This document shows, piece after piece, positions 7,085-61,188 of a DNA stretch of 63,725 bases. The stretch is from Chromatiales bacterium (lineage in GTDB: Bacteria; Pseudomonadota; Gammaproteobacteria; Thiohalomonadales; Thiohalomonadaceae). Position 1 is the first letter of the stretch. Each line of letters opens with the position of its first letter. The position numbers were made by a program, and so were the translations under genes. The notes under the pieces are model-generated. The model ran no database searches and was not told the DNA's origin. It saw only the letters and a list, made by a program, of their open reading frames with translations. The stretch is from NCBI GenBank assembly GCA_029879245.1, contig JAOUQQ010000003.1, positions 1 to 63,725 of the forward strand, written 5' to 3'.

Positions 7085-7186
7085 GGGGAGTAGACGATTT
7101 AATCTATACTCTATATCGTTTAGCGTTACTGTGCTGAAAGGGTAGCAGAGAGTGGTACCCTCAGTGAAGGAATAGTGGGAAAAGTT

Positions 7187-9280
7187 ATGTCAACAAAGCC
7201 TGATAAGAGTTCCTTTCCTATTGCGGTGGCCGTGGTGCTGTCGGCGTGTTTTGCGCCTGTCATCATGGCCGCTGACGAGATGGCATTTGGTGATGAGGAC
7301 TACCTGGCAGAACTGCCGTTTGTTCTCACGGTTAGCCGGTTACCACAGAAGGCACAGGATCTACCGGCCTCGGTTACGGTGATCGACCGTCAGATGATTG
7401 AGGCCTCCGGGGCAAAGGAGATCCCCGAAGTATTAAGGCTTGTAGCGGGGTTTCAGGTTGGCCACGGCAATATGATAGGTCCCCGCACAACGGTGACCTA
7501 TCACGGCATGAGTGATCACTTTGCCCGCAGAATGCAGATCCTGATAGATGGCCGCTCTATTTATACCCCCGCGACGGGAGGGGTTGATTGGTATGGCTTA
7601 CCGATCGTGCTGGAGGACATCGAACGCATAGAGGTGACGCGAGGCCCTAATGGGGTGGCTTATGGTGCAAACGCCTTTCTTGGTGTGATCAATATTATTA
7701 CGAGCCACCCTAACGATCTGCAGGGTACATTGGTAAAGAGCACAGCAGGAGATAACGGATATCGTAACCATCTGCTTCGACATGCGGGTAAGGAGGGGGC
7801 ACTGGACTATCGATTATCGTTGAACTACCAGAGTGATGAAGGGAATGAAAATTACAAAGATAATCAGTTAGATGCAATACGTAATGACTATCGCATTCAG
7901 TCGGCCAGCCTGAGGACAGATTACCGTTACGGCATCAATGACTATCTGACCATGCAGCTGGGTGCCAGTAATGGAGAGATGGGGGATGGCGTTATTGGTG
8001 ATATTACACAGCCACTGCATGAAAATGAGGCGAGGCAATATTTCGCACAGCTGAAATGGAAGCGTATTATGAGCACTGATAACGATATTGAGGTGCAGTT
8101 CTACCACAATCGTAATGTGACCGATGCGGACTATTTTGTCCCCAATCTCTCGACGATATTTGGGATAACTCCCGCAGAGGTGCAACTCTTTTTTGCGCAC
8201 AATGATGACCCGGTTTATATACCCCACAGCCACACCATGCGTCGAAGTAATATTGAGTTGGTGAATCGTATGAAACCATACGAATCGTTGCGGTTGGTAT
8301 GGGGTGCGGAAGCGCGATTGGATGAAGTTGAATCACCAGGATTAATCGGAGCAAACAGCCCTGTGGAGAACCGGCTCTATCGCCTTTTTGCCAATGGTGA
8401 GTGGACACCTGTAGAGGACTGGGTAATCAACATGGGCGTCATGGCAGAGAAGAATGACATAACGGACACTCGCTACTCTCCACGCATCGCGGTAAATTAT
8501 GATTTGAGTAGTAGTCATACACTGCGTGCCGCCTATTCAGTTAATTATCGTACCCCCGCTATAGTAGAAGAATATGCTGATTATGGAGCACGATTTTTTA
8601 CGGATGACTGGATGATTGATCAGATCTGGGCAAGTCAAGGGGATCTGGATCCGGAAAAGAGCATGTCCTATGAGATTGCGCTGGTCGGCTCACTGGATAA
8701 TCGAAAGTTGCAGTATGATATTCGGTTCTTCAGAGATGAGTTGACCGATCTCATTGCTACACCATGGAACTGGAACAGTGTGGAGAATTACAGTGCGCTG
8801 TGTGTGTTTAATACGTCATTCTGCAGGGCTACAGCGATGCGAAATGGCGGCGAGGCAACGATAAGTGGTTATGAGATACAGACACGATATCAAGTCGCGG
8901 ATAAGAGTCTGATTGCGACGGGTTATTCCAATGCTTACGCATCAGGTGAGTTACTCGAGACAATAAATCCAGACTCCTACTTGTCACCACAGGATTCGGT
9001 ACCACTTAGCACATTTTCTGTATTGGCCGCTACGGAGTTTGGACAAAGGTGGCAAATGAGCGCTGCACACTACTACGTGAGTGATTCAATGTTTATCGGT
9101 GGTGATATGACGGGTGGCATTAGAACTACTGATCTGCGTCTGGCAAAGGGATTTAATATGTCGGGAGTCAAGGGAAAGCTGTCTATTGTGATGCAGGATA
9201 TCAATGGAACATATTATGATTTTATGGACTCTATTGAGAGAGTACGTACTACTTATCTGACGGCTGAATTTCAGTTCTAG
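7187..9280 (+). CDS. TonB-dependent outer-membrane receptor
   Basis: This is an outer-membrane beta-barrel for TonB-powered uptake or sensing. A signal peptide ends near VIMAADE. The plug follows (about residues 45-160) with LPASVTVIDRQMIEASGAKE, QILIDGRSIYTP and DIERIEVTRGPNGVAYGANA, then VINIIT. The barrel repeats aromatic strands (NDYLTMQLGASNGEMGDG, HTLRAAYSVNYRTPAIVEEY) and ends TYLTAEFQF with a terminal Phe. At 697 residues it is of normal size. No extended N-terminal signalling domain (STN) is present, so it would not work as a classical FecA transducer. The ATG at 7187 (GGGA six bases upstream) is preferred to a GTG at 7175. The ligand is unknown. It heads a three-gene operon. Confidence 0.93.
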   Translation: MSTKPDKSSFPIAVAVVLSACFAPVIMAADEMAFGDEDYLAELPFVLTVSRLPQKAQDLPASVTVIDRQMIEASGAKEIPEVLRLVAGFQVGHGNMIGPRTTVTYHGMSDHFARRMQILIDGRSIYTPATGGVDWYGLPIVLEDIERIEVTRGPNGVAYGANAFLGVINIITSHPNDLQGTLVKSTAGDNGYRNHLLRHAGKEGALDYRLSLNYQSDEGNENYKDNQLDAIRNDYRIQSASLRTDYRYGINDYLTMQLGASNGEMGDGVIGDITQPLHENEARQYFAQLKWKRIMSTDNDIEVQFYHNRNVTDADYFVPNLSTIFGITPAEVQLFFAHNDDPVYIPHSHTMRRSNIELVNRMKPYESLRLVWGAEARLDEVESPGLIGANSPVENRLYRLFANGEWTPVEDWVINMGVMAEKNDITDTRYSPRIAVNYDLSSSHTLRAAYSVNYRTPAIVEEYADYGARFFTDDWMIDQIWASQGDLDPEKSMSYEIALVGSLDNRKLQYDIRFFRDELTDLIATPWNWNSVENYSALCVFNTSFCRATAMRNGGEATISGYEIQTRYQVADKSLIATGYSNAYASGELLETINPDSYLSPQDSVPLSTFSVLAATEFGQRWQMSAAHYYVSDSMFIGGDMTGGIRTTDLRLAKGFNMSGVKGKLSIVMQDINGTYYDFMDSIERVRTTYLTAEFQF

Positions 9281-9308
9281 AAAATATGCATCAGTACATG
9301 GAAGGACA

Positions 9309-10217
9309 ATGGTAAACTGGCTAATATTGATTGCGCGACTATGTGCGGTTATCGCATTGTGCCCATTGTCAGTGTGGGCAGATGAGATATGGTTTATCTT
9401 CGATGAAGATAATAGCCATTACCAGAACTATCTTGATAAAAACAATAGTGAACTGCGAGCACTGCTGCCTGGCGTAACTATACGTAACGTAACATCCGGT
9501 AGTGCGACGCCATCTGCACAGCGCGAGGAGCGGGTGCTGATTGTGACGCTTGGAAGTGAAGCGGCCAGTCAGGCCGTTCATTACAATTATCCGACACTCA
9601 ATACACTGATCACTCAGCGAGCCCATGAACGGGTGAAGGCGGAGTATAGTTCATCAATCTCTGCAATTTATCTTGAACAGCCTGTCGATCGACACATGGA
9701 GCTTATTAGTGTCGCGCTACCTGAAAGAAAGAAGATAACGATCATGGTGGGTGAAGATGCGCTTTTTTATGAAAACGAAGTAAGGCTGGCGGCGAGGAAA
9801 TATGGCATAGACCTTGATGTATTAAAGGTAATAAATGAAGAGGAAATTTCTGCGCTATTTGGTAGCGAGATACTCAAGGAAGATACGCTGCTGCTGTTGC
9901 CAGATTCCAGTGTGGTTAACAGGAAAACAATAAAGCCTCTGGTGCTTGGTAGTTACCGCCATCACATCCCTATGGTCGGTTATTCCCAGGCTCTGGTAAA
10001 GGCAGGCGCATTGATGTCTGCTCACACCTCCCTAGATGAACTTGGCAATGAGATGCGTCGGGTAATAGTGGATTATTTCAGAACCGGACATCTGATACCC
10101 GCACATCATGTTAATACATTCGACATATCCGTAAATTATCAATTAGCCAGGGCGTTGCAGCTGTCTTTGCCGGAAGAGCATGAGCTGATGAAGAAGATGC
10201 GGAGGCGCCTGCAATGA
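9309..10217 (+). CDS. Periplasmic ABC_sub_bind-type binding protein
   Basis: This 302-residue protein has a cleavable signal peptide (about residues 1-24, ending SVWADE) and the layout of the ABC transporter substrate-binding family PF04392: LIVTLGSEAASQAV, AIYLEQPVDRHMELISVALP, a second lobe with TIMVGEDALFYENE, and TLLLLPDSSVVNRKTI and IPMVGYSQALVKAGALMS. No permease or ATPase gene is nearby. Instead it lies between a TonB receptor and a sensor kinase, with its stop overlapping the kinase start (ATGA). The inferred role is a periplasmic ligand sensor handing a signal to the kinase. It is related to the lipoprotein at 43574. Confidence 0.83.
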   Translation: MVNWLILIARLCAVIALCPLSVWADEIWFIFDEDNSHYQNYLDKNNSELRALLPGVTIRNVTSGSATPSAQREERVLIVTLGSEAASQAVHYNYPTLNTLITQRAHERVKAEYSSSISAIYLEQPVDRHMELISVALPERKKITIMVGEDALFYENEVRLAARKYGIDLDVLKVINEEEISALFGSEILKEDTLLLLPDSSVVNRKTIKPLVLGSYRHHIPMVGYSQALVKAGALMSAHTSLDELGNEMRRVIVDYFRTGHLIPAHHVNTFDISVNYQLARALQLSLPEEHELMKKMRRRLQ

Positions 10218-12517
10218 TCAAGCAGACAATCCGCTACAGACTGTTGCTGTTGACATTAATACCCCCAATATTAATGCTATTAATAATCGTAAGTTACTTT
10301 GTCTATCAGGATGATAAGTTGATGCGAGAGGCACTCTTCGATAGAGGCAGTTCTCTTTCGCGATATCTATCATCGGTAGCTGAATATGGGGTGATTACCG
10401 GAAACACACAACAGCTGCAGCATATTAGTGACACCTTGCTGCAGGATGATATTGTCGCAATGACAATATATGACTTTGATGGAAGGACAATTCTTTCTGC
10501 AGGAAAGGAGCCGTTGGCGTTACAAGTAGGTGCCAATATGGAGTCCGCAGGATATTGTGGTGGTGACGACAGTCGTTTGATGTTTTGTGCACCTATCAAG
10601 CTTGATGTGATGCCAGTTAGTGATTTTGAGAGTTCTAACGCATCCAGCGAATCGACGACTATTGGTAGAGTTGAACTGACTCTATCCACATATTTGATCG
10701 AGGAAAAACGACAGGGGCTATGGAACTGGTCGTTAATGCTAATCACGATCGTGGCAATTATCACCTTAATGGTAAATAGATTCATGCAGCGACACCTTGT
10801 TGTGCCGCTGGCATCGTTAAGTAATGTTGTTGACAAGGTACGGCAGGGAGACCTGCAGGCAAAGGTGCCAGAGGGGGCTAGTGGAGAACTGCTGATGTTG
10901 CAGCAAGGCGTTAATGTGATGATCGATGCTCTTGCGGATATGCACGGACACATGCAGCAGGAGATAGAGACGGCAACAGAGAGTTTGCGTCAGGCGCTTC
11001 AGGATATTGAGTTGCGAAACAGGGATCTACATGAGGAGCGACTTAAGGCAGAAACAGCCAGTTTGGCTAAAAGTCAGTTTCTTGCAACGATGAGCCACGA
11101 AATACGTACGCCACTCGGCGGTATGATTGGCATGCTTCATGTTATTCGCCATGGTATTAGCGATCGTCAGCAGCTTGACTGTATTGACAGTGTAGAAGCG
11201 GCCGCAAATTCACTGCGTCAATTGATCGACGATATTCTCGATTTTTCTCGCATGGAGGTGGGAAAACTGACGCTGCAAAACCAGCTATTTAATCCGCTCT
11301 CTGTTATTGAAGATGTGATGCGGATGTTTGCCCCATCTGCTCAACAGAAGAACTTACATTTTGTGCTTAATGTAGATGGAACTCTGCCGCATGAGGTGGT
11401 TGGGGACCCATTGAGATTTCGTCAGATTCTAATCAATCTTACTGCCAATGCCATTAAGTTTACCCATCAGGGAGAGGTGGTGGTATCAGCGGGTGCAGTA
11501 AAACGTGATACACAACGAACTGTGCGTTTTGAGGTTTGTGATACCGGGATCGGTATCGCTGCAGAAAAACAGGAGCTGGTGTTCGAGAGCTTTACCCAGA
11601 TCGATGAGGGTGATGCGAGACATTATGGCGGTAGTGGTCTTGGAACCACCGTGAGTCGTGAGCTGGTGACGATGATGGGAGGTGATATTGGGCTTGAGAG
11701 TGAGTTGGGCAAGGGCAGCTGTTTCTGGTTTGAGTTGCCGTGGGAGGCAGAAGAGTCGCAGCCTGAATCGACAGAGGCAGCTAATGTTCTATTGATGGAG
11801 CCTCATGAGTCGAGTGCCAGGGCCATTGCCGCCATGCTGGAGTCTGAGCAGATTGGGGTCACACGAGTGACAACTATCACGCAAATGGAGCTCGCGCTAC
11901 GGGATCGAGTGTTTGATTGGGTGATGGTTGGAGTCTTCGTGCATGAGACAACAAATCGCCAGTTACTTAACCAGCTTGATCAGGAGTTGCCAGATGCAAC
12001 GCGTCTGGTACACCTCTGTTATGTGAATGGTGAACGTCAGGAGGGGGGGCGTATAGAGCACCTCAGCAAGCCTGTGTTGCCGTCGGTGCTTCATCAGTTG
12101 CTGCAGCATGGTGGGGGCCAAGTCGATGAAGATGAGACCGATAAGGTGAAGGACCTGGTCGTGTTGCTGGCTGAGGATGATGAGGTAAATGCTCGGGTAA
12201 TCACCCATTTTCTAACAACTGGCGGTCATCGGGTCGTGCGTGTCGTCAATGGTGCGGAGGCATTAAAGGTCATGGAGGATCACCACTTTGACTGTGTGTT
12301 AATGGATATGCGAATGCCGGGAATGGATGGATTGGAGGCGACCAGACTCTGGCGCAGCAAGGAGGGTGGTGATAGCCATTTGCCGATTATCGCTCTGACG
12401 GCCAATGCCAGTGACGAAGATAGGGAGCGCTGTCGCGAGGTGGGGATGGATGACTATCTTACCAAGCCGGTGGAGAGTCAGCGGCTCTTGGAGACTCTCG
12501 TACACTATTGTCGCTAG
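10214..12517 (+). CDS. Hybrid sensor histidine kinase, BarA/GacS-like layout without Hpt
   Basis: This is an inner-membrane hybrid kinase of 767 residues. A first membrane helix (about 8-30) precedes a periplasmic loop with two Cys (115 and 125); a second helix (about 170-190) leads to HAMP, a coiled coil and HisKA with SHEIRTP (His295). HATPase_c follows with [17 protein letters not shown] and GSGLG. Residues about 522-630 form a receiver-like domain lacking the phospho-acceptor Asp (Gly573 in its place; Lys619 kept). Residues about 648-767 form an intact receiver ([10 protein letters not shown], Asp698 in [12 protein letters not shown] in LTKPVE). There is no Hpt domain, so relay would need a separate Hpt protein. 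It overlaps the binding-protein gene by 4 bp. Confidence 0.93.
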
Positions 12518-21159: not shown

Positions 21160-22244
<1,085 letters not shown>

Positions 22245-22245
<1 letters not shown>

Positions 22246-23473: not shown

Positions 23474-23522
23474 TAATGTGCTTAATTAGACATAAACAAG
23501 AAGCTGCTAAGGATCTTAAATA

Positions 23523-24095: not shown

Positions 24096-24120
24096 TAACT
24101 ACACCACGGAGATAAGAAAG

Positions 24121-26241: not shown

Positions 26242-26283
26242 TCTCATAGCCGTACAGATCGAAGAATTATGGGGAACATTGAT

Positions 26284-29200
26284 ATGCGAAATATTATGCG
26301 ATGGGCACAAATCCTGATTACACTCGTGGCAGTTAGCTTGCTCGGCTGCGGCGAAAGTGAGAAGTTTTATGGGCCCGGTGGTGGTACGGTTACGCCTGGC
26401 GTAAACTACACTCTAAGTGCTGCTGCAATACAGTCTTCTATCGTTGTAGGTACCACAACAAATATAAGGGCGTTGTTAGTAGACGAAAATCAGCAACCGG
26501 TATCTGGTCAAACCGTAACTTTTTATATAGATAACGGTACCTTTGGTGGATTACAAAGTACAACGGCCGCTACGGATGGCAATGGTATCGCTACAGCAAC
26601 GGTAACGGCAGCCTTTCAGGTTGGTTCGGGTACAGTTGATGTTTCATACGGTGATAGCAGTACTTCAGTTGGGCTTACATACACGGTTGGACCAATTAGA
26701 TTTCTAACACTTGATGCCTTGCCGGCGGCGGTAGGTGTAAGCTCGGATAGCAGTATTACAGTGACTGCACTTGATCAGTATGGCAATCCAGTGACTAATC
26801 GTGCAATGCAGTTTGCATCACAGCCAAACGCTAGTGGTGGTTCATTTGTGGGTCCAGGAATTGCGTCGACGAACAGCAGTGGTACTGCCACAGTTGTGTA
26901 TACATCAGGGGCACTAGCCCCTGTGCAGGACACAATTACTGTTACCGAATTGGTAAACCCCGGTGTAGTGAGTGCAACTAAAATTATTGATGTGACACAG
27001 TCTGCTGTGGCCGTAGGAACGCTGTCACTGGGATTGAGTACGGCAGCAACATCTATTACTGTTGGCTCTACAGGTATCACTGCAAATGCAACGGTAGTAG
27101 ACACTAAAGGCAATGCATTACCCGGTGTTGATGTGGCATTCCAAATTACTGGGACGGGTGATTTTGCTGGTGCAAAAGCTGCAATTGCAACGACAAATGC
27201 TAGTGGTCTTGCCACCGCAGCACTTACCGTTCCAAATCTGGTTGGCGGTGCTACTATCACTGCTGTGACCGCGGGGAAAACTGCATCAATAAAGGTAACT
27301 TATATACCAAGCTCACCTGCTTTGATGACGATAAGTGCTAGCCCGACTACAGTAGGCGTATCTACGGATAGTACGATCACGGCCACGTTCTTCGATTCGT
27401 TTGGCAATCTAACGCCTAATGAGCCAGTAACGTTTGCAGTTATTGCAGACAATAGTGGTGGATCTGTCTTAAGTAATCCCACGGGACTAACACAGACAAA
27501 TGCCAGTGGCATTGCTGAAATGGTATACACATCAGGATCGACGAACGTAGGTGTCCTGGATCGCGTTCAAGCAAGAGCGACAAATGGCACTCAGCCAACC
27601 GGTTCGGTTGACATATCTGTTAGTCAATCAGCAACACAAATCTCGACGCTTAAACTTGCGCTAAGTACACCATCAACATCTATTACTGTGGGTACGAATA
27701 CTGTAACAGCCGATGCAACAGTACTTGATTCAAGCGGTACGGCTGTTCCTGGTGTAAATGTAACATTTCAAATTATTGGTGGAGGCGATTTTGGTGGTTC
27801 GAAGACCATCACCGTACCAACAAATCCTCAAGGTGTCGCTCAGACGACACTTGCGGCTCCTAGCTTGGTGGGTACAGCACAAATTATTGCGGCATCTGCA
27901 GGTCTGACTTCAGCAGTTACCGTGACGTACATACCGGATGCACCAAGCGCAATAACATTGAATGCAAGTCCAGCATCGCTTGGGGTGCTGTCGAATAGTA
28001 CATTAGTTGCTAGCGTGTATGACCAATATGGAAATATTACACCAAGCGAACCGGTAACCTTTGCCATATCAGCACCGAATAGTGGTGCGCCTGTATTGAG
28101 TAACCCATTGGGAGTTGCGCAGACAAACCAGAGTGGAGTTGCATCGATGATCTATACGTCGGGTGCGACTTCTGGTGTGGTTGATACTGTAAGTGTTACC
28201 GCCACAAATGGGACAAATCCAACTGTTGCGGCGAATATCTCAGTCAGTGCGGCTAGTACAGCCGTAACTGGATTAAACTTGGGATTGGATTCAGCAACCA
28301 ATACAATTACTGTGAACGACTCTACAGTCAATGCCATTGCTACGGTAACAAATAGTAGTGGGGGACCTGTCCCTGGTGTAGCGGTAGCATTTGCAATACA
28401 GGGTGCAGGTACCTTTATTGGTAATGTGAAAACACTAGAGGTACTTACCGATGCAACAGGTGTTGCATCAGCACAAATTTTTGCACCTGTACTCGTGGGT
28501 GTTGCCAATGTTAGTGCGTCAGCATCGGGTCTGAGCAGTAATGTGCTTGTGACATATGCGGCTGCAGTACCAAATACGGTTATTTTGAGCAGTAATACTG
28601 CAATTGTGGATGTAAGCACTGATGCGATTTTGAGCGCCGCCGTTTATGATGCACACGGAAACGCTGTACCGAATGAGGCAGTAGTGTTCTCTGTGAGTCC
28701 AAATAATAGTGGTGCAACGTTATCAAATATTGTTGGTAATGCGCAAACGAATGCGTTAGGTGTGGCCTCCTTAGTTTACACGTCCGGTACACTGGCGCCT
28801 ACTCAAGACACGCTCGGTGTAACTGTGACTAACGGTGGTATCGTTGCTACCCCAGTTAGTATTGATGTTGTTGCGGGTACAGCAACTATCCCAACTAGTA
28901 TGACAATTGGCACCAACACAACAACTATCAATTCAGATGGTTCCAACTCTGCAACTATTACCGCAACGGTTCTAGATAATGCAAATGTTGTGGTTCCCGG
29001 TGCTACAGTGAGCTTTACTTCGTCGGGCGGTGTACTTTCAGCAGGTACTGTGGTGACCAATCAACTTGGGGAAGCAGTCGTTACACTGAATGCGGGGACA
29101 GACCCTGCAAATCAGGTGATTACAGTTACTGGGACTGTAAGTGGTGTTCCAGCTGCAGCAGTTCCTGTTGAAGTTGTAGGCACAACGTTAGGGATTAACT

Positions 29201-30957
29201 CAACAATCAGTAGTCTGATTATTGGTGGCACAGATACTGCTACTATGACTGTGAATGCAAGTAATGCTGATGCGGTAGGGATATTTGGTGCCAATGTAAC
29301 ATTGGCCATAGATGGTACTGCAAGTACAGGTGCAGCTAACTTATCTGCAGCATCTGGAATAACCGGCACACAAGGGACATTTAACGTCGATATTACAGGT
29401 ACGTCGCCTGGAATAGTCAGGGTTGTCGCTACAGGTCTCGGTGCAACAACAACATTCGACTATTTGGTTGAAAGTTTGGCAGGGAGTTTGTTAATAACCT
29501 CTCCTGTTTCGGGCACAACGGTGACTGTCAATACGCCTATGACAGTTTCTATTGACGTCCCAGTGGGTACAACGTCTGTGACATTAGTTAGCTCGTTGGG
29601 CACATGGGCCGGGAGTGGTTCAAGTGTGAGGACATGGGCGGGGTTGGTTCCACCCGTGACAATATCTGACGATTTGACCTCTACCTCTATTGGGATGGCC
29701 AACATTACTGTGGCGGATACGAATAATACTAATCTTAACGCCAGTATCCAATTGGTAATGGTAGATAAAGCTGTCGGGCCAAATAGTGTTGTCAGTCTAC
29801 AGGCAACGCCGACGACTGTAGCACAGACGGTTGGTGGTACTCAGAATACCTCTTCGCTTGAGGCTACTGTGATAGACAGCATCAATTCAACTCCAATTGC
29901 AGGTGCGCGTGTAACCTTCTCGATTAGTAACGCACCTGGGAGTGGAGAATATATATCACCACCAGTGGCCTATACTGATGCCTTTGGTGTGGCGCGTGCT
30001 ACATTTTATTCAGGGAGTATGAGTACAAATCCAACAGGGTTAGTGGTTACTGCTGAGTTGGATCAGACACTTACTGGTGCACTGAAAAGCGATCAGGTGA
30101 ATATCATTGTAGGAGGAACTGCCGGTGCAATCGCGATAGGCACTAGTACGACTATTTCAAGTATCAATAGTAATACGGCATACAAACAGTCGATATCGAT
30201 ACAGGTGACGGATGCTAGTGGAAGCCCTGTACCCGAGACGCCGGTTAGCCTGAGTCTATGGCCACAGGAATACGCCCTTGGGTGGTGGGAGTGTGAAGTG
30301 TTATATAGAGACACCATCCTTGTGAATGAAGATATAAACAAAAACTTGGTGTTAGATGCAGGTGAGGATCGTAGTTCTGATGGTTCACTAACACCACCTA
30401 TATCAGCTGCAGGCGCAATACCATCTAGTGTAAAAACCGACGCGAATGGGGTTGCGACAGTCGACCTCGTCTATTTGAAGGATTACGCAGGCTTTATTAA
30501 TAATGCGCTATCGGCAACTGCTATAGTGTCAGGCACAGAAACTAAGGCGACACTGAACTTCTGGTTGAGTGCGCTGAAGGCCGATGTGTCGGCATGTTTA
30601 TTGGGTGGTTCTCCGTTAAACGCCCATTGGCCGGAGTTGTCAGTGACTCCCGAGCTGAATCCCCTACCAGCGACTACACCTACTACACCTGTATATGTGA
30701 ACTTGGTAGGTACAAATGGCTTGGGAATAGCTGGTGCTAATGTAACGGCTACATTCCTCTCCTGGGGAACGGATGATGGGGTAACACCACCTACTATTGG
30801 AGGTGGAAATCCATCGGCAGTCCTTCCGACTGATGCGGACGGTAATGTGACATTTACCTATGCAAAGGGAGGCAAGAGTGGAGATGATTTGATTAAATTC
30901 ACCTACACAACCCCCACAGGGGTAGTTATTGCAAGATATTTGACGATGACGTGGTAG
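26284..30957 (+). CDS. Giant Ig-like (Big_1-type) repeat lipoprotein
   Basis: This is a 1,557-residue predicted lipoprotein. The signal peptide ends in the lipobox LLGC (Cys22), with GGGG-type spacer residues after it. Most of the rest is a string of bacterial Ig-like domains rich in T, S, V, A and G, with motifs such as VTFxI, DxxGxA and VxVTYI. Two alternating domain types form doublets of about 208 residues, four in a row. Further Ig-like domains follow, and the C-terminal 250 residues diverge and include a Trp/Cys-bearing segment ([20 protein letters not shown]). No catalytic motif is seen. It lies between pilQ and aroK, and its stop overlaps the aroK start. I infer a surface adhesin or a pilus-linked stalk. 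Confidence 0.85.
26430..28890 (+). repeat. Tandem protein-coding repeat, four units of about 620 bp
   Basis: Within the Ig-repeat gene four successive units begin near 26430, 27049, 27674 and 28299. Recognisable in each are SITVGxxxITANAT-type and [12 protein letters not shown]-type openings, then DQYGN / DSFGN and VYTSG. At DNA level a stretch such as ACATCTATTACTGT recurs in units two and three. The units are diverged, so expansion is not recent. Confidence 0.75.
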
Positions 30958-35277: not shown

Positions 35278-38200
35278 GTGAGCGACACGAAGCAAGAATA
35301 CAAAGGTTTATACCACCCCTCCTTCGAGAAGGATAACTGCGGCTTTGGTCTGATGGCCCATATGGATGGCAAGCCCAGCCACTGGCTGGTGCAGACCGCC
35401 ATTGAGGCGCTGGGCCGCATGACCCACCGCGGCGCCATCGCCGCCGACGGCAAGACCGGCGATGGCTGCGGGCTGCTGATCAAGAAACCGGAGGGGTTCC
35501 TCAAGGCGGTGGCCGGCGAGTGCGGTATCGAACTGGCTGACGGCTTCGGCGTCGGCACCGTGTTCCTGTCGAAGGATGAGGCCGAGGCCGAGGCTGGCCG
35601 CAAGGCCCTGGAAGAGGGTCTGAAGGCCGAGGGGCTTGCCGTTGCCGGCTGGCGCGTGGTTCCTACCAACTCCGAGGCCTGCGGTGAGTCCGCCAAGCTG
35701 ACCCAGCCCGGGATCGAACAGGTTTTCGTCAACATGCCTGCCGCTATGTCTGCCGAGGAGTTCGAGGTACGCCTCTACGTCGCCCGTCGCCGCGCCGAGA
35801 AGGCGTGCGAGGCTGCGGGGGATCAGATGTTCTACCTGCCGACCCTCTCCACCAAGGTGTTGTCATATAAAGGTATGGTGATGCCGGAGTTTCTGCCGGT
35901 CTTTTACCCCGACCTGGGCGATGCGCGAATGGAGACCGCCATTTGCGTCTTCCACCAGCGCTTTGCCACCAACACTATGCCGCAGTGGCGCCTGGCACAG
36001 CCGTTCCGCTACCTGGCCCATAACGGTGAGATCAACACTGTACGCGGCAACCGCAACTGGGCCCGTGCCCGCTCCTACACCTTCTCGACCGATGCCATCC
36101 CCGATATGGATGCGGTACGCCCATGGGTTTCCATGGAGGGCTCTGACTCTTCCAGCATGGACAACATGCTGGAGGCGCTGATGGCCGGTGGCGTCGATAT
36201 CTTCCGCGCGATGCGCCTGCTGGTACCGCCGGCGTGGCAGAACGTCTCGGAGATGGACCCGGACCTGCGCGCCTTCTACGAGTACAACTCGATGCACATG
36301 GAGCCGTGGGACGGCCCCGCCGGTATGGTGCTGACCGACGGTCGCTACGCCGCCTGCTCGCTCGACCGCAACGGCCTGCGCCCGGCCCGCTACGTCATCA
36401 CCAAGCCCGGTGGCGGTGATGTCACTGACGGTGACTACACCGGCTGCGTCATTACGCTCGCCTCCGAGATCGGCGTCTACGGTTACGACAACGCCATCGT
36501 CATCAAGAAGGGGCGCCTCAAGCCTGGCCAGATGCTGGCCGCCGATACCGAGACCGCGCGCCTCATCCTGCCGCACGAGGTCGATGAGCGCCTCAAGGGT
36601 GCCAAGCCCTACCGTGAGTGGATGAAGAACGCCACGCGCCTGGAATCGAAGCTGGAGGGCGACCCCCTCACCGCCACCCCGATGGAGGCCGAGGAGATCA
36701 AGGTCTACCAGAAGCTGTTCCAGCTCTCCTTCGAGGAGCGCGACCAGATCATCCGCGTCCTCGCCGAGGGCGGTGCCGAGGCGGTCTCCTCGATGGGCGA
36801 CGATGCACCCTACCCGGTAATGTCGCACAAGCTGCGCTCGGTCTACGACAACTTCCGCCAGATGTTCGCCCAGGTCACCAACCCGCCGATCGACCCGATC
36901 CGTGAGGAGATCGTGATGTCGCTGGAGACCCTCTTCGGCAGCGAGAAGAACCTCTTCGACGAGACCCCGGAGCACGCCCGGCGGCTGATCTCCGACTCGC
37001 CGGTCCTCTCCGAGGGCAAGTTCCGCCAACTGCTGGCACACAACGAGGGTGACTTCGCCCACGCGGTGATCGACCTCAACTACCCGGCCAGCTTCGGCCT
37101 GCAAAAGGCGATCGGCGATATCTGCGACAAGGCGATCGCCGCGGTGCAGGGTGGTAAGACCATCCTCATCCTCTCCGATCGCAACATCGCCAAAAATACT
37201 GTGCCGGTCCACGCGGCCCTGGCCACCGGTGCCCTGCACCACCGCCTGATCGCTGAGGGCGAGCGCTGCAACGCCAATATCGTGGTGCAGACCGCGACCA
37301 CCCGTGACCCGCACCACTTCGCGGTGCTGCTCGGTTACGGTGCCACCGCCATCTACCCCTACCTCGCCTACGAGGCCATTAACGACATGGTCAATAGTGG
37401 TGAGCTCCAGTCCGCTAAGGGGCAGAAGGATGTGGATGCCCTCGGCTACAACTATCGTAAGGGGATCAACAAGGGTCTCTACAAGGTGATGTCGAAGATG
37501 GGCATCTCCTCGGTTGCCTCCTACCGCGGCTCGCAGCTCTTTGAGATCGTCGGCCTGCACAACGAGGTGGTCGACCAGTGCTTCAACGGCACCACCTCGC
37601 GCATCCAGGGTGCAGACTACAGCGACCTCGAGTCTGACGTGCTGGCGCTGGCGAAGATCGCCTGGAACCCGCGCAAGCCGATCGACCAGGGTGGTCTGCT
37701 GAAATACGTCGAGGGTGGTGAGGCGCACGCCTACAACCCCGACGTAATCCGCACCATCCACAAGGCGGTCAATTCCGGCGACTGGAACGACTACCTGGAG
37801 TTCGCCGCCACCGTCAACAACCGACCGGCGATGATGCTGCGCGACCTGTTGAAGCTGCGTGAGGACATTACCCCGATCTCCATTGATGAGGTCGAGCCGG
37901 CGGAGAACCTCTTCAAGCGCTTCGACACCGCGGCGATGTCACTCGGTGCCCTCTCCCCCGAGGCCCACGAGGCCCTCGCCATCGCGATGAACAATCTGGG
38001 TGGCCGCTCCAACTCCGGTGAGGGTGGTGAGGACCCCAAGCGTTACGTCGACAAGTCCAAGTACTCCAAGATCAAGCAGGTCGCCTCGGGCCGCTTCGGC
38101 GTCACCCCCGGTTACCTCGCCAACGCCGAGGTGCTACAGATCAAGGTGGCCCAGGGGGCGAAGCCCGGTGAGGGTGGTCAGCTTCCCGGTGACAAGGTCA

Positions 38201-39795
38201 ACGAGACCATCGCCCGCCTGCGCTACACCCGCCCGGGCGTGCCGCTCATTTCGCCGCCGCCGCACCACGACATCTACTCCATCGAGGACCTGGCGCAGCT
38301 GATCTTTGATCTCAAGCAGGTCAACCCCGAGGCGCTGGTCTCGGTGAAGCTGGTCTCCGAGCCCGGCGTCGGCACCATCGCCGCCGGCGTGGCCAAGGCC
38401 TATGCCGACCTCATCACCATCTCCGGTTATGACGGTGGTACCGCCGCCTCTCCGACCGCCTCGGTGAAGTACGCCGGTTCGCCGTGGGAGCTGGGTGTCT
38501 CCGAGACCCACCAGGTGCTGAAGATGAACGACCTGCGCGGCAAGGTGCGGGTACAGGCCGACGGTGGCCTGAAGACCGGCCTCGACGTGGTCAAGGCGGC
38601 TATCCTCGGCGCCGAGTCCTTCGGTTTCGGTACCATGCCGATGGTGGTGCTGGGATGTAAGTACCTGCGCATCTGCCACCTCAACAACTGCGCCACCGGC
38701 GTCGCGACGCAGAACGATGTGCTGCGTGCCAAGCACTACAAGGGCAAACCGGAGCTGGTCGAGACCTACTTCCGCTTCATCGCCCGCGAGGTACGCGAGT
38801 GGATGGCCAAGCTGGGTGTACGTACCCTGGAAGAGCTGATCGGTCGTACCGACCTGCTGGAGATCCTGCCGGGTGACACCAGCCGCCAGCAGAAACTCGA
38901 CCTGACCCCGATCACCCAGTTCAACACCGCGGTCGACGGCCCCAACTGCTGCATCGAGCCGCGCAATGCCCCGTTCGATGAGGGCAAGCTGGCCGAGCAG
39001 ATGGTCGCCGACGCCCTCGCCGCCATCGAAAACAAGTCGGGCGGCGAGTTCAGCTACACCCTGGAGAACATCAACCGCTCGGTCGGTGCCCGTCTCTCCG
39101 GTGAGATCGCCAAGCGTTGGGACAACCTCGGCATGAGTGATGCCCCCATTACCCTGCGCCTCTCCGGTACTGCCGGTCAGTCCTTCGGCGTGTGGAACGC
39201 CGGTGGCCTCAACATGTACCTCGACGGTGATGCCAACGACTACGTGGGCAAGGGGATGGCTGGCGGCAAGCTGGTGATCCGCCCACCGGCGGATAGCCGC
39301 TACGCCACCAACGAGAACACCATCATCGGTAACACCTGCCTCTACGGCGCCACCGGCGGTAAGCTGTTTGCCGCGGGGATGGCCGGTGAGCGCTTCGGCG
39401 TGCGTAATTCCGGTGCCCACGCGGTGATCGAGGCGGCCGGTGACCACTGCGGCGAATACATGACCGGCGGTGTCATCACCGTACTCGGCCCGACCGGGGT
39501 CAACTTCGGTGCCGGCCTCACCGGCGGCTTCGCCTTCGTCCTCGACGAGGAGGGCAAGTTCGCTGAGCGTTGCAACGGCGATGTGGATATCCACCGCATC
39601 AACACCGAGTCGACCGAGGCGCACCGCAACTTCCTGCGCGATACTATCGCCGAGTATGTGGAAGAGACCGGGTCTGCCCACGGCAAGAAGATCCTCGACA
39701 ACTTCGATGACTTCATCGGCAAGTTCTGGCTGGTCAAGCCGAAGGCGGCCGAGCTGAAGACCCTGCTCGAAGTGATGCTGCAAAAAGCTGCGTAA
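35278..39795 (+). CDS. gltB: Glutamate synthase (NADPH) large subunit
   Basis: GltB transfers the glutamine amide to 2-oxoglutarate. After processing, Cys21 ([17 protein letters not shown]) becomes the N-terminal nucleophile of the class II amidotransferase domain. The central domain, the FMN-binding synthase barrel ([36 protein letters not shown]) and the 3Fe-4S Cys cluster [16 protein letters not shown] (about residues 1125-1140) follow, then the C-terminal GXGXG beta-helix. It is 1,505 residues. The start is a GTG. Codons are strongly biased to C or G at third positions, much more than in neighbours, suggesting high expression. Confidence 0.98.
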
Positions 39796-39802
39796 GGTTT
39801 GA

Positions 39803-41224
<1,422 letters not shown>

Positions 41225-41234
41225 GTCAGTGAAG

Positions 41235-41263
41235 ACGCCCGGCAGTGACCGGGCGTTTTTCTT
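41235..41263 (+). terminator. Intrinsic terminator after gltD
   Basis: An 8-bp perfect stem (ACGCCCGG / CCGGGCGT) with a CAGTGA loop is followed by TTTTCTTT. It starts 10 bp after the gltD stop and isolates gltBD from hemE. Confidence 0.93.
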
Positions 41264-41326
41264 TAGCGATATGAATAACAATGAATGGCTCCGCGCAGAT
41301 GCGTCGAGACCTATCAGGAATACACC

Positions 41327-42391
41327 ATGTCTGAACTGAAAAACGATCGTTTCCTTCGCGCCCTGCTGAAAGAGCCGGTAGACGTCACCCCGGTGTGGAT
41401 GATGCGCCAGGCGGGCCGCTACCTGCCCGAGTACAAGGCGACCCGCGCCAGGGCCGGCAGCTTCATGGACCTCTGCATGAACCCGGAGCTGGCCTGTGAG
41501 GTGACGATCCAGCCGCTTGACCGTTACCCCCTCGACGCCGCGATCCTCTTCTCCGACATCCTCACCATCCCCGACGCGATGGGTCTGCAACTGCGCTTCG
41601 CCGAGGGAGAGGGGCCGATCTTCGACAAGCCGGTGCGCACCGAGGCCGATGTAAACAATCTGCCGGTGCCCGACCCGGAGGATAGCCTCAAGTACGTGAT
41701 GGATGCAGTACGCACCATCCGTCGCGAGCTCGACGGCCGGGTGCCGCTCATCGGCTTCTCCGGCTCCCCCTGGACCCTGGCTACCTATATGGTCGAGGGT
41801 GGCACCTCGAAGGACTTCGCCAAGGTGAAGGGGATGATGTACGACCGCCCCGACCTGATGCACAAGCTGCTCGACACCACCGCACAGTCGGTGATCAGCT
41901 ACCTCAACGCCCAGGTCGCCGCCGGTGCCCAGGCGCTGATGATCTTCGACACCTGGGGCGGCTCCCTCACCCCGCGTGACTACCGCGAGTTCTCCCTGGG
42001 CTACATGCAGCAGATCGTCGAGGGGCTGACCCGCGAGGCGGAGGGGCGCAGGGTGCCGGTGATCCTCTTCACCAAGGGCGGTGGCCAGTGGCTGGAGGCG
42101 ATGGCCGCGACCGGCTGTGATGGTCTTGGCCTCGACTGGACCACCGATATAGGTGAGGCGCGCAAGCGTGTCGGGGACAAGGTGGCGATGCAGGGCAATA
42201 TGGACCCGAGCGTGCTCTACGCCTCGCCGGAGCGGATTAAGCAGGAGGTCGCCTCAATTCTGGAGTCCTACGGCACGGGATCCGGCCATGTCTTTAACCT
42301 CGGTCATGGCATCCACCAGCACGTCGACCCGGAGCACGCCGGGGCCTTCGTCGAGGCGGTGCATGAGCTGAGCGCCAAATATCATCAGTAA
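41327..42391 (+). CDS. hemE: Uroporphyrinogen decarboxylase
   Basis: HemE converts uroporphyrinogen III to coproporphyrinogen III in heme synthesis. It has the motifs [64 protein letters not shown] and [15 protein letters not shown]. The ATG at 41327 with AGGAA upstream gives 354 residues, the usual length; a frame from 41285 adds an unsupported leader. Codon bias is similar to gltBD. Confidence 0.97.
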
Positions 42392-42571: not shown

Positions 42572-43513
42572 ATGGATAATAGCAGCAAGAATCGTGGGGA
42601 TATATCCATCATCGTGGTGGATGACATGAAGTTTAACTGCGAATTTATTCGTAAGAGCTTGCAAAACGAAGGGTATAACGACGTCAGGGTTGCGATCAGT
42701 GCTCGAGAGGCATTACAGCAACTGGAGGAGCGCCAGGCGGAGGTATTGCTGGCTGACTGGGTGATGCCGGAGATGGATGGACTGGAGCTGACCGACAGGG
42801 TGCGGCAGATAGATGAAGAAAAAAACCACTATACTTGTGTTGTTTTGCTAACGGCAAGGGACGACATCGATTCGGTTATCGAGGCCTTTGATAGAGGGGT
42901 GGATGATTATCTGACCAAACCACCAAACAAGCAGGAACTGGCGGCCCGGATCTATGCCGCAGGGAGAATGGCCTGCCTGCAGAATGGTCTTCTTGATGCA
43001 ATGAAGACACTGAGAGAGAGTTATGAGGGACGGGTGACCATCGATCAGGCTACCGGACTTGGTAATCGCCTCGATGCGGAGCGTCGCTTCAGTGAGCTGG
43101 TCGAGATGGTTGAGTCGCGAGGTGGAGCAGCGTGCTGTGGATTTTTCAGTCTTAACAACAGTGAAGGATTGCTGGCCGAGTATGGTGAATCTGCCTACAT
43201 TGAAGTGCTTAAAAGCATTGCTACCCGACTGAGTCGTGCAATACGCCCCAATGATGTGGTTGCGCGCATCTCCGATGCGGAGTTTGTCGTTGGCATGTAT
43301 TATCACGATGAAGAGCAGCTAAGAAGCAAAACCTATAAACGCATTCTGCAATCGATTAATCTGCGACCAATAAAAACATCACGTGGCTTTATCACGATTA
43401 GCGGATCAATGGCTGTCAGTTGTTGTACCAAGAAAAATTTTTACAGTAGTGCAGAGGATTTGATAGCGGCTGCGGCTGAGAGGCTATCTAAAGACACGAG
43501 TGAAAGTACATAA
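42572..43513 (+). CDS. Response regulator with degenerate GGDEF domain
   Basis: This is a two-domain cytosolic protein of 313 residues. The receiver (about 10-130) is intact: VVDD, phospho-acceptor Asp62 in LADWVMPEMDG, and Lys116 in YLTKPPNK. The second domain begins DQATGLGNRLDAERRFSELV, which is GGDEF-like, but the signature is SDAEF (residues 234-238), so cyclase activity is unlikely. It could be a receptor or scaffold. It is followed at 60 bp by the binding lipoprotein and the GGDEF-EAL gene, which suggests one signalling unit. Confidence 0.9.
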   Translation: MDNSSKNRGDISIIVVDDMKFNCEFIRKSLQNEGYNDVRVAISAREALQQLEERQAEVLLADWVMPEMDGLELTDRVRQIDEEKNHYTCVVLLTARDDIDSVIEAFDRGVDDYLTKPPNKQELAARIYAAGRMACLQNGLLDAMKTLRESYEGRVTIDQATGLGNRLDAERRFSELVEMVESRGGAACCGFFSLNNSEGLLAEYGESAYIEVLKSIATRLSRAIRPNDVVARISDAEFVVGMYYHDEEQLRSKTYKRILQSINLRPIKTSRGFITISGSMAVSCCTKKNFYSSAEDLIAAAAERLSKDTSEST

Positions 43514-43573
43514 CTAGCAGACAGCACCGCCACTGAGTGGCGCTATAGAAAATTAAATCAAGATTTGATCACG

Positions 43574-44569
43574 ATGGTTCGCCTTATCCCCCTCTTGTTT
43601 GTATTTCTGTTTCTCATACAGGCCTGTGGTACGGCACCAAAACCTCGAATAGAACCAGAAATTCCCAAAGAGGTTGAAAAAGAGGAGCCACAGGAGATAA
43701 CGATTAAGAAAACTGCCAGGCCACCTGTGATCATCCTGCTAAGTGAGATGATCCCGGCCTACCAGCAGGTTGCCGATGAACTGGTGCGAATACTCCCTGA
43801 TAACACCATAGTGGTGCTGCTGGCGAGTGAGGCTGCTGAGCGGGAGACGCAGCGCAAACTGATGCGCCAGGAGGGATATCAGCAATTTGTGGCGATCGGA
43901 CTTGAGGCTGCACAGATTGCTAAATCGGTAGCGGGAGCAGAGGATGAGGTGGTCTTCTGTCAGGTCTTTAACCATCGCCTACATAATATTGCCGGGCCGA
44001 TGAGTAAGGGGGTAGGGGCATTGCCTGGGGGTAGTGAACTGTTTAAACAGTGGCGTAGCATGTCGCCAGGTTTGAAACGAGTTTTGGTAATGACCGGTAG
44101 CGATCTGGATGAGGTAATCAGCCTTGCAACTGAGCAGGCGAAAGAGCAAGGAATTGAGCTGGTACACAGGGTGGTCGAGAACGATAAGGTATTGCTCTTT
44201 ACCTACAAAGAGATGGCAAGCGCTGTAGATGGGATATGGTTGCTGCCGGATAACCGTATTCTGAGTGGGCGCACTATCCGCGATGTACTCGCGTTTAGTG
44301 TGCGTAATGGCAAGCAGGTAGCGGCATTTAGTGACGAAATTTTCCGCCTCGGTGCGTTATTGAGTGTAAAGAGTAAATCCACAGAGATTGCAGGGAAAGT
44401 GGTTCATCGTCTTGATGAGGCATACCAGGCTAAGGGTTTTCCGGGGCCTGAGCTGGTACTATTAGAACATGCCTCAATCAAAGTTAACGATGTCGCGGCA
44501 AAACGCTATAATATTAAGTATATAGAGAATAAGGAGTTAACCGATAATGCTGAGGGAGTGGCTGAATAG
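43574..44569 (+). CDS. ABC_sub_bind-type lipoprotein
   Basis: This 331-residue exported lipoprotein has a lipobox (IQAC) at about residue 17, an acidic/basic linker (EPEIPKEVEKEEPQEITIKK) and two lobes resembling the ABC_sub_bind family: VVLLASEAAERETQRKLM, RVLVMTGSDLDEVISLA, and the C-terminal WLLPDNRILSGRTIRDVLAF and GALLSVKSKSTEIAGKVV. These align with LLPDSSVVNRKTI and GALMSAHTS of the periplasmic protein at 9309. No transporter genes are nearby. It ends 23 bp inside the following GGDEF-EAL gene. The inferred role is a sensory input. A TTG at 43565 is an alternative start. Confidence 0.8.
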   Translation: MVRLIPLLFVFLFLIQACGTAPKPRIEPEIPKEVEKEEPQEITIKKTARPPVIILLSEMIPAYQQVADELVRILPDNTIVVLLASEAAERETQRKLMRQEGYQQFVAIGLEAAQIAKSVAGAEDEVVFCQVFNHRLHNIAGPMSKGVGALPGGSELFKQWRSMSPGLKRVLVMTGSDLDEVISLATEQAKEQGIELVHRVVENDKVLLFTYKEMASAVDGIWLLPDNRILSGRTIRDVLAFSVRNGKQVAAFSDEIFRLGALLSVKSKSTEIAGKVVHRLDEAYQAKGFPGPELVLLEHASIKVNDVAAKRYNIKYIENKELTDNAEGVAE

Positions 44570-46754
44570 AGCAAGCGAGCATTTAAACACGCTGTCAGAC
44601 AGGGTGCTTCCCTCTTTTTGTGTACATTTAGTAAAACGTTCCCCTACATCCCTTGCCAGTCGCATACTTGCTCTGCAGATCCTCTGGGCACTGCTCTTCG
44701 GCATGCTCATCATATCTGTACTGTGGTGGGGTTCAAGCAGGGTGATTGAGGGGAGTTTCGAAAGGCAGGCAGAGGGGTGGATCAATAAGCTGGATGAACT
44801 GGCCACACCACTATATACCTCTGAAGACAAAAGCTATTTTCATGAGACGGTTGATTATCTGAGAAACTTTCCTGAGGTTGCCAGTGTCCAGTACTACACT
44901 GCACAGGGAGATGAGATGGTTGCCGAATATTATCGTAACGGCGACCCGGAAGGTAAGCAGACGGCGTTTCGCCATAGCAGTAAAGAGCTGGCCGAACTGA
45001 TGATTACTGATAGGGATAGCAAACCTCAGCTACTCCACAATGGCGACGCGAGTTCGATCTTTCATATCAGCGAACCGATCTGGATAAAGTCGGTTGCCAG
45101 TAATGGGATGTTTGACTTCTCGCTGGATGAACCAGAAGAGGAGACGATTAAGGTTATTGGAGTTTTGCGAGTAGGTTTGGACTATTCACGGTATCAACGT
45201 GATCTTGAAAGTATGGTGTTATGGGGAAGTGCGTTAATTATTTTTCTGTTGGTAATTGCGGCGTACATCGGGCGTATATTAATCCGCTGGGCGTTGCGGC
45301 CGCTACGACAGCTGGAGGAGCCGCTAAATCGCCTAGCAAACGGGGAAACGGATGTTGAGGTGGTCAGCAGCGGCGACCGTGAGATAGTACAAATCGCCAA
45401 AGTACTAAACACAACTATCGGGGCGCTTCGCGAGCATGACGAAACTCTTCGCCGTATGGCCAATCACGATCCGCTCACGGGGCTGATTAATCGCAACTAT
45501 TTTCAGGAACAGCTTGAACTGGAGCTAAAGCGTATTGGCCGGGACGGAGGTAGCAGTGCCCTGTTCTTTATCGATCTGGATCGCTTCAAGTTTATTAATG
45601 ATACCTACGGCCATGCCGCCGGTGATCGTCTTCTGGTGGCGGTCTCCAATTTGCTCAAACATCGTATGCGAGAGGGTGATCTGATAGGGCGCTTTGGCGG
45701 TGATGAGTTTGTGGCTCTGGTTCATCGTGTCGATCGCAAACAGGCAGGTGAGGTGGCAGCGGATCTGATTCGCCTGATGCAGGAGTTTAAATTTCACGAG
45801 GCAGGAGACACACTTCACATCCAGTTTAGTGTTGGAGTCACAGTATTTGATAATGCATTGTTGACCGCGCACGATGTCCTCCTGCAGGCCGATGCGGCAG
45901 TACATGAAGCCAAAAATTACGGGCGTAACTGTTTTCAGATCTATGAATCATCTGAAGACAATAAAGTAATTGCGCATGATTATGGCTGGCACGAACGCAT
46001 CACCCGTGTACTGGAGGAGCAGAGTTTAATTCTCTACTATCAACCCCTAATGACATTGGGCGACGCTGTTGAAAGGGTATGTGAGGTATTGTTACGCATG
46101 CCTGATGGAAAGCAGAATCTACTAATTCCAGCCGCCTTTTTCCCGGCGGCAGAGCGTTTTGGTCTGATGGCTGAGGTGGATCGTCAGGTAATTCGCAAGG
46201 CAGCACAGTGGCTAACCAGCCTGAGTGAAAAGGATGTTGTGTTGTCAATAAATCTCTCTTTCCAGAGTTTTGAAGAGAAGCAGCAGCTGGATGAATATCT
46301 GGTAGAAATTTTTTCTGAATTTGACATCAATCCGCGACAGTTTATCTTCGAAATTGATGAGGCCGTAGCAGTACGTCACAGTGAAAAGGTGCGTCCCCTG
46401 ATGGAAAAGATCAACAATCTGGGGTGCCAGTTTGCTGTTGATAATTTCGGTGCTGGCTATGCGTCATTTAACTACCTGAAGCACTGTCCTGTGCACAGGT
46501 TGAATATTGATCGGATGTTGATTGAGAATCTTGCGCAGGAGCCTGTCCATCAGATTATTGTCAGGGCAATCGTTGAGGCGGCACATGCGTTAGGCAAGCA
46601 GACTGTGGCCAAATATGTACAGGATGACCTCTCTCTACGGCTACTGAAACAGTTTGGCGTAGATTATGCGCAGGGCAACTTTCTTTGTGAGGCGCTACCA
46701 GTGAAGGAGAAGAGTTCGCCAGAGCTTTCTGTGGTAAGGGGCGGCCTCTCCTAG
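44547..46754 (+). CDS. Membrane GGDEF-EAL protein with intact cyclase and degraded EAL domain
   Basis: This 735-residue inner-membrane protein has a first helix (about 38-62), a periplasmic sensor loop (about 65-222), a second helix (about 223-245) and a HAMP-like stretch. The GGDEF domain (about 300-465) has the intact signature GGDEF 384-388 and an allosteric I-site RxxD (Arg375-Asp378). The EAL domain (about 480-725) reads EVL at 513-515, keeps Asn569, Glu602 and Asp632, but has Asn633 for the second Asp, Asn653 for the catalytic Lys and Lys689 for Glu. It is therefore a likely c-di-GMP synthase with a non-hydrolysing EAL module. It overlaps the lipoprotein gene by 23 bp. Confidence 0.9.
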   Translation: MLREWLNRASEHLNTLSDRVLPSFCVHLVKRSPTSLASRILALQILWALLFGMLIISVLWWGSSRVIEGSFERQAEGWINKLDELATPLYTSEDKSYFHETVDYLRNFPEVASVQYYTAQGDEMVAEYYRNGDPEGKQTAFRHSSKELAELMITDRDSKPQLLHNGDASSIFHISEPIWIKSVASNGMFDFSLDEPEEETIKVIGVLRVGLDYSRYQRDLESMVLWGSALIIFLLVIAAYIGRILIRWALRPLRQLEEPLNRLANGETDVEVVSSGDREIVQIAKVLNTTIGALREHDETLRRMANHDPLTGLINRNYFQEQLELELKRIGRDGGSSALFFIDLDRFKFINDTYGHAAGDRLLVAVSNLLKHRMREGDLIGRFGGDEFVALVHRVDRKQAGEVAADLIRLMQEFKFHEAGDTLHIQFSVGVTVFDNALLTAHDVLLQADAAVHEAKNYGRNCFQIYESSEDNKVIAHDYGWHERITRVLEEQSLILYYQPLMTLGDAVERVCEVLLRMPDGKQNLLIPAAFFPAAERFGLMAEVDRQVIRKAAQWLTSLSEKDVVLSINLSFQSFEEKQQLDEYLVEIFSEFDINPRQFIFEIDEAVAVRHSEKVRPLMEKINNLGCQFAVDNFGAGYASFNYLKHCPVHRLNIDRMLIENLAQEPVHQIIVRAIVEAAHALGKQTVAKYVQDDLSLRLLKQFGVDYAQGNFLCEALPVKEKSSPELSVVRGGLS

Positions 46755-61128: not shown

Positions 61129-61162
61129 TTATTTAATAGTTAAGTATTGTGTCCCCTGAATT
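61129..61162. repeat. Left inverted-repeat arm
   Basis: The arm reads from TTATTTAAT through the core AGTTAAGTATT to GTGTCCCCTGAATT. It starts 31 bp after the toxin gene and ends 26 bp before the GTG of the WD40-like gene, so it could also hold that gene's promoter region. Confidence 0.7.
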
Positions 61163-61188
61163 TATGTTTCAATAATTGGTGGCTAATA

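Follow-up and report, generated by a model that had tools for sequence, protein, structure and literature searches.

The lipoprotein and the GGDEF-EAL protein described here are encoded by a conserved two-gene module, and the adjacency of their genes is far beyond chance. We propose that the lipoprotein is probably a signalling solute-binding protein that gates the c-di-GMP output of its co-translated GGDEF-EAL partner, and not a part of a transporter. Since the same gene arrangement with a c-di-GMP-making enzyme is found in many bacteria, the lipoprotein most likely senses an extracellular molecule instead of importing it. This lipoprotein family carries the name of a transporter component, yet its genes are linked to those of c-di-GMP enzymes, and it offers a clear, testable way to find new c-di-GMP signals from outside the cell. 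In Pseudomonadota, many proteins annotated as 'ABC substrate-binding protein' in this way may carry a misleading name.

A conserved lipoprotein and GGDEF-EAL gene pair

The window, by which we mean the whole stretch of 63,725 nucleotides that was analysed, holds three plus-strand ORFs between hemE and a convergent gene (named nrnA by eye), with the same boundaries as were first assigned to them:

42572..43513, plus strand: orphan response regulator with a degenerate GGDEF domain (Pfam Response_reg and GGDEF); a site-resident neighbour outside the conserved module
43565..44569, plus strand: PF04392 (ABC_sub_bind, TrpX-like) lipoprotein (Pfam, lipobox, AlphaFold2 model)
44547..46754, plus strand: GGDEF-EAL partner, 735 aa (Pfam HAMP, GGDEF and EAL; periplasmic-domain profile match)
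44547..44569, plus strand: overlap of the lipoprotein and GGDEF-EAL genes, 23 nt (AAGGAG upstream of the second ATG)

The 23-bp overlap of the last two genes, reported in the sequence-only reading, was confirmed at 44547–44569. A Shine–Dalgarno-like AAGGAG precedes the start ATG of the GGDEF-EAL gene at 44547, and the two genes are probably translationally coupled via the overlap. A scan for promoters and terminators found sites no more numerous than in shuffled sequences.

Relatives were sought by the lipoprotein alone, blind to the neighbouring genes. Searching a named genome collection by two lipoprotein peptide patterns yielded 84 stretches and 21 relatives, and a profile search of a class sample of 369 genomes gave a match at 1e-5 in 55. 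Scores in the class sample were bimodal: 10 of the 369 genomes, the window's own included, scored above 170 bits and the others below 80. The 10 positive genomes span six family codes, indicating that co-occurrence of the pair reaches well past close relatives. Neither outcome named in the sequence-only reading as refuting it was seen, since the pair is not confined to close relatives and the genome holds no cognate BPD_transp_2 permease. Surroundings were retrieved for all class-sample matches outside the window's own genome. In a phylum sample of 398 genomes, 29 had matches at 1e-10, none of them of the clade type besides the window.

Lipoproteins of the high-scoring type, together with 18 of the 21 named loci, make up a set of 28, window included (L043–L045 were not of this type, and the duplicates L015, L017 and L018 were dropped). 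In a careful tree of 61 proteins, a branch with 100/100 support separates these 28 from all the others, and a quick tree of 118 proteins agrees with this clade. A gene encoding both GGDEF and EAL is the next on the strand in 26 of the 28 loci. In the remaining two, L030 and L035, the partner gene is cut short by the end of the contig; HAMP is visible in both and the start of GGDEF in L035. The genes overlap in 21 of the 26 pairs, as judged from longest-ORF starts and with the window included. A TonB receptor is encoded directly upstream in none of 27 clade loci (window not counted), compared with 45 of 89 other loci, and the window locus likewise has no TonB-dependent receptor (TBDR) gene upstream of the lipoprotein.

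Lipoprotein fold, partner domains and a proposed mechanism

The sole Pfam match of the lipoprotein is ABC_sub_bind (PF04392), at 30.5 bits against a cut-off of 25.9. Its length is 334 aa from TTG 43565 or 331 aa from ATG 43574, the ATG appearing the more likely start. A signal peptide with the lipobox IQAC (Cys21) is followed by a Pro/Glu/Lys-rich linker of about 30 residues and by a predicted two-lobed clamshell, residues about 51–330 (AlphaFold2 model, pLDDT 85.8). The closest PDB structures to the model are 3lft (Z 22.8), 3lkv and 6hni/6hnj (CD0873; 6hnj Z 23.5); a PDB search with the single sequence gave no meaningful match, whereas a profile search did find matches. Cys21 is invariant in all 28 clade lipoproteins. 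A simple lipobox pattern occurred in only 4 of 90 non-clade rows, though it also overlooked 7 of the 28 clade lipoproteins.

The ligand residues of TrpX are T108, A127, T129, D152 and N233 in S. suis numbering (PMC9382623). ABC-linked PF04392 proteins form a clade of their own (10 rows), and all five residues are kept in each of the 10. In the lipoprotein clade, T108, A127, T129 and D152 are kept in 0 of 28 rows and N233 in 25, with Q at the A127 position in 27; the window lipoprotein has L113, Q133, F135, A152 and N230 at these sites. On the other hand, D229 and G263 are kept in 28/28 rows of the clade alignment, Q133 in 27/28 and N230 in 25/28, and some of these residues correspond to cleft-lining positions of TrpX. 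The conserved cleft residues and the intact clamshell suggest that the lipoprotein binds something there. With a modelled two-lobed clamshell whose nearest structures are 3lft, 3lkv and CD0873, it likely binds something, but a ligand other than that of TrpX or in a different way.

Alternatively, the lipoprotein could be a sensor of envelope position or stress, an arm anchored in the outer membrane, with the cyclase gated by its tether instead of by a small molecule. Tethered-arm gating is imagined here in the manner of YfiB–YfiN and RcsF. Such an arm would fit the lipobox Cys in 28/28 rows, the Pro-rich linkers in many of them and the loss of the canonical TrpX ligand residues, and, under the +2 residue rule for lipoprotein sorting, it would fit the lack of Asp at +2 after the Cys in any of the 28 rows. 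It does not account for an intact clamshell in which D229, G263, Q133 and N230 are strongly conserved, partly at cleft-lining sites, and we regard it as unlikely.

The partner is arranged as TM helix, sCache-like periplasmic domain (about residues 92–213), TM helix, HAMP, GGDEF and EAL. Its GGDEF motif is intact at the window locus, with an I-site RxxD, and is also intact in all 29 partner rows that reach the motif (26 from the clade and 3 others), most of them with the I-site R-x-x-D. The EAL motif reads EVL in most partner rows, window included, and the window's EAL domain is degenerate elsewhere (DNFGAG, NIDR, AKYVQ). At the sites aligned to RocR E175, N233, E265, D295, D296, K316 and E352, names and numbering that we take to be those of its catalytic site, the window protein has E, N, E, D, N, N and K; N thus replaces the second Asp of DDFG as well as the Lys of KID. 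We conclude from these residues that the window's EAL domain is probably catalytically dead. At the RocR-E352 position, the 24 clade rows that reach it have E in 16, K in 7 (the window and six close rows) and G in 1 (L083). Because 16 of 24 keep the E, the loss appears to be local to the window species and its close kin and not clade-wide, and in most of the other family members the EAL domain may have kept phosphodiesterase activity. EVL alone does not amount to loss of activity, since the motif is EVL in MbaA too, whose cytoplasmic part is described as having phosphodiesterase activity in vitro (PMC8079147).

A profile of the partner's periplasmic domain matched the periplasmic domain of PF04392-linked kinases at 96.4% in hhalign (E 1.4e-9), compared with 0.4% for a control against the lipoprotein profile. 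The kinases' domain is named sCache_4 by Pfam in the window, and the profile match indicates that the two periplasmic domains are homologous. A fold search with the GGDEF-EAL model was uninformative on the periplasmic part, the best 50 matches all being proteins with GGDEF/EAL catalytic domains. Evolutionary distances of the lipoprotein correlate with those of the partner's periplasmic domain (r=0.81) and of its GGDEF domain (r=0.82), the partial correlations (0.40 and 0.36) not separating the two. For comparison, the 2.7-Mb genome of the window gives 36 matches to GGDEF/EAL profiles.

The mechanism that we propose starts from observed features, namely the conserved pair, the lipobox, the predicted folds, the motif states and the absence of transporter partners. 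The lipoprotein would be anchored by its lipid and linker to a presumed membrane, and its clamshell would close on a putative small molecule in the periplasm, one that is probably neither tryptophan nor tyrosine bound as in TrpX. One state of the lipoprotein would then dock on the sCache-like domain of the inner-membrane GGDEF-EAL protein, and the signal would reach the dimeric GGDEF domain by way of TM2 and HAMP, altering c-di-GMP synthesis. The c-di-GMP product would inhibit the cyclase at the I-site, and the EAL domain of the window species and its close kin would probably serve as a c-di-GMP-binding or structural domain. Since that domain is without catalytic residues, the net output would be that of a diguanylate cyclase gated by ligand via the tethered clamshell.

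The response regulator and the transporter reading

The sequence-only reading had counted the response regulator as part of the cassette, which would make a three-gene phosphorelay/c-di-GMP unit in which the regulator controls the pair or is controlled by it. All three genes do lie on the same strand, with a gap of 51 nt between regulator and lipoprotein, and share a low GC3 (about 0.51 in each); low GC3 is found at 7–12 kb too, however, and so marks no unit. The regulator, whose GGDEF motif is degenerate (ISDAEF in place of GGDEF, with a weak Pfam GGDEF match), also occurs without the pair. In the sister species G001 it is 74% identical to the window's and has a GC content of 61.5%, and the gene order at the same site is a gltB-size ORF, gltD, hemE, (a 167-aa ORF), the regulator and the convergent gene, with the pair absent. 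The stop-to-stop spacing from regulator to convergent gene is a few bases in G001 compared with 3.2 kb in the window, and the G001 genome has no lipoprotein of the clade type. Three further genomes (G010, G006 and G026) have the regulator with no pair beside it. Conversely, four g8 genomes with the pair that were examined have no regulator upstream of it, and the clade loci show no receiver-domain gene in the up to three ORFs inspected upstream. Because the regulator stands without the pair in G001, G010, G006 and G026, and the pair without the regulator in g8, we conclude that the pair was gained or lost at the hemE site as a unit. Cassette membership of the regulator is rejected by the pair-less site in G001 and the regulator-less g8 loci, which leaves control of the pair by the regulator, or of the regulator by the pair, very unlikely. 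Base composition was uninformative on a recent foreign origin of the pair, GC3 being near 0.5 in the regulator, the pair and the 7–12 kb cassette.

Two other observations concern this region. A perfect inverted repeat, CGCCAC-TGA-GTGGCG, without a T-run, lies between the regulator and lipoprotein genes at 43528–43542. The gltB-gltD-hemE stretch (35278–42391) has 64% GC and a GC3 of about 0.85, whereas the DNA immediately downstream has about 49% GC; fragments of gltD and hemE share 84–88% identity with G001, and the regulator and downstream genes 74–75%. From these figures the stretch looks like a product of recent recombination with a GC-rich relative.

That the lipoprotein is the binding protein of an ordinary ABC transporter of the TrpX type and merely adjoins a c-di-GMP gene, as its PF04392 name and fold (3lft, 3lkv, 6hni) might imply, is largely refuted and retains next to no probability: no ABC-transporter genes lie beside the lipoprotein in any of the 28 clade loci, window included, with no BPD_transp_2 permease and ATPase adjacent to it at the window locus; the window's genome has no cognate BPD_transp_2 permease elsewhere either, this being the permease family that adjoins the ABC-linked relative L183 and is present in 12 of 14 control genomes; four of the five TrpX ligand residues are replaced; and the adjacency to GGDEF-EAL is conserved.

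Related systems and interchangeable outputs

The window contains a second PF04392 locus:

7175..9280, plus strand: TonB-dependent receptor, same cassette as the 9309 protein
9309..10217, plus strand: second PF04392 protein, no lipobox (Pfam ABC_sub_bind, 38.5 bits)
10214..12517, plus strand: hybrid kinase, sCache_4-HAMP-HisKA-HATPase-receiver (Pfam), partner of the 9309 protein

The lipoprotein had been assigned to the same family as the 9309 protein, with the same kind of binding protein serving different outputs at the two loci. Both claims stand: both proteins are PF04392 (BLASTP E=1e-7, 25% over 116 aa), and one locus has a c-di-GMP output, the other a hybrid kinase. They are the only PF04392 matches in the window's genome (98.35% complete). 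Plasmid records related to the 9309 protein number 37, and the lipoprotein has no plasmid relatives at E 1e-3. The order TonB receptor, PF04392 protein, hybrid kinase (7175–12517 in the window) is common to many Gammaproteobacteria. Cassettes of this kind share with the pair a homologous binding protein and a periplasmic receptor domain, but differ in having no lipobox, a receptor gene upstream, a phosphorelay output and a separate branch in the tree.

Among 118 PF04392-type proteins, the partner was labelled as a kinase in 61 (mostly from phmmer or profile matches and not Pfam), as GGDEF-EAL in 31, as an ABC permease in 10, as SpoIIE in 2, as GGDEF in 1 (L188) and as a kinase-GGDEF-EAL fusion in 1, with 12 unassigned. 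L119, whose partner is cut off, is not among the kinases. The 31 GGDEF-EAL labels comprise the 28 clade members, including L030 and L035 with partners cut by the contig end, and L092, L110 and L121. A further output type is a HAMP-SpoIIE phosphatase after the PF04392 protein (L111:4922-7557 and L171:4923-7489), and L188:6387-8461 is a TBDR - PF04392 - sCache_4-GGDEF operon with a VpvABC-like layout. A single origin of GGDEF-EAL coupling was rejected (p-AU 5e-7), and by these tree comparisons PF04392 became coupled to GGDEF-EAL more than once. Given the match between the periplasmic domains of the partner and the linked kinases, and the variety of outputs among PF04392 relatives, a single sensory unit made up of a binding protein and a Cache-HAMP receptor has been placed before several outputs. 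We see about an even chance that PF04392 proteins serve Cache-HAMP receptors generally as a periplasmic 'plug-in', the output being exchangeable (hybrid kinase, GGDEF, GGDEF-EAL or SpoIIE phosphatase), and that the lipoprotein clade is a distinct, undescribed type of c-di-GMP receptor whose lipid-tethered clamshell stands in for the outer-membrane receptor found in other layouts.

No paper on PF04392 with GGDEF/EAL was found in the open-access literature searched. Binding proteins of other families do accompany c-di-GMP enzymes. ScrABC of Vibrio parahaemolyticus joins the periplasmic protein ScrB with the GGDEF-EAL protein ScrC; unlike the window pair, it has a different binding-protein family and a signal-synthesis gene. 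NspS is a PotD-like polyamine-binding protein, whereas the window's binding protein is a PF04392 lipoprotein with no polyamine-binding family match in Pfam. NspS-MbaA is described as sensing polyamines in Vibrio cholerae, and its binding-protein gene lies directly upstream of the gene for a membrane GGDEF-EAL (EVL) protein, as in the window and its clade (PMC8079147). According to the same account, NspS contacts the periplasmic domain of MbaA as a ligand-dependent switch, which for the window pair is a proposal only, and MbaA has SGDEF and needs its EVL for the phosphodiesterase role; in the window GGDEF is intact and EAL degenerate.

VpvABC of Vibrio is described as a porin, a periplasmic binding protein and a membrane diguanylate cyclase, with vpvAB proposed as a sensing unit later linked to the cyclase (PMC12456836), a proposal akin to the one made here for PF04392 proteins and their Cache-HAMP receptors. 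The L188 operon has the same layout, a likeness by layout, whereas the lipoprotein clade differs in having no outer-membrane receptor gene, a lipid anchor, an EAL domain and its own branch. Given that VpvABC (PMC12456836) and NspS-MbaA (PMC8079147) are described and work in a way like that proposed for the pair, the earlier statement that no described system of exactly this make-up was known was too strong. By analogy, the pair would work like NspS-MbaA and resembles VpvABC, yet appears to be a separate variant. The tryptophan transporter TrpXYZ (PMC9382623), as described there, has a binding protein of the same fold and family, but the window lipoprotein is without ABC permease or ATPase partners and has lost the TrpX ligand residues. 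According to a review, SBP_bac_3 is the only one of the 27 PBP-clan families of Pfam v34 to have been investigated in c-di-GMP networks (PMC8846402).

Elsewhere in the window, a 1562-aa protein with a lipoprotein-like start and Ig-like repeats is encoded at 26269–30957, directly after pilus-assembly-like genes at 21172–26241 (names by eye), and a low-GC ORF (about 36%) with a beta-propeller likeness by eye lies among higher-GC genes at 61147–62256.
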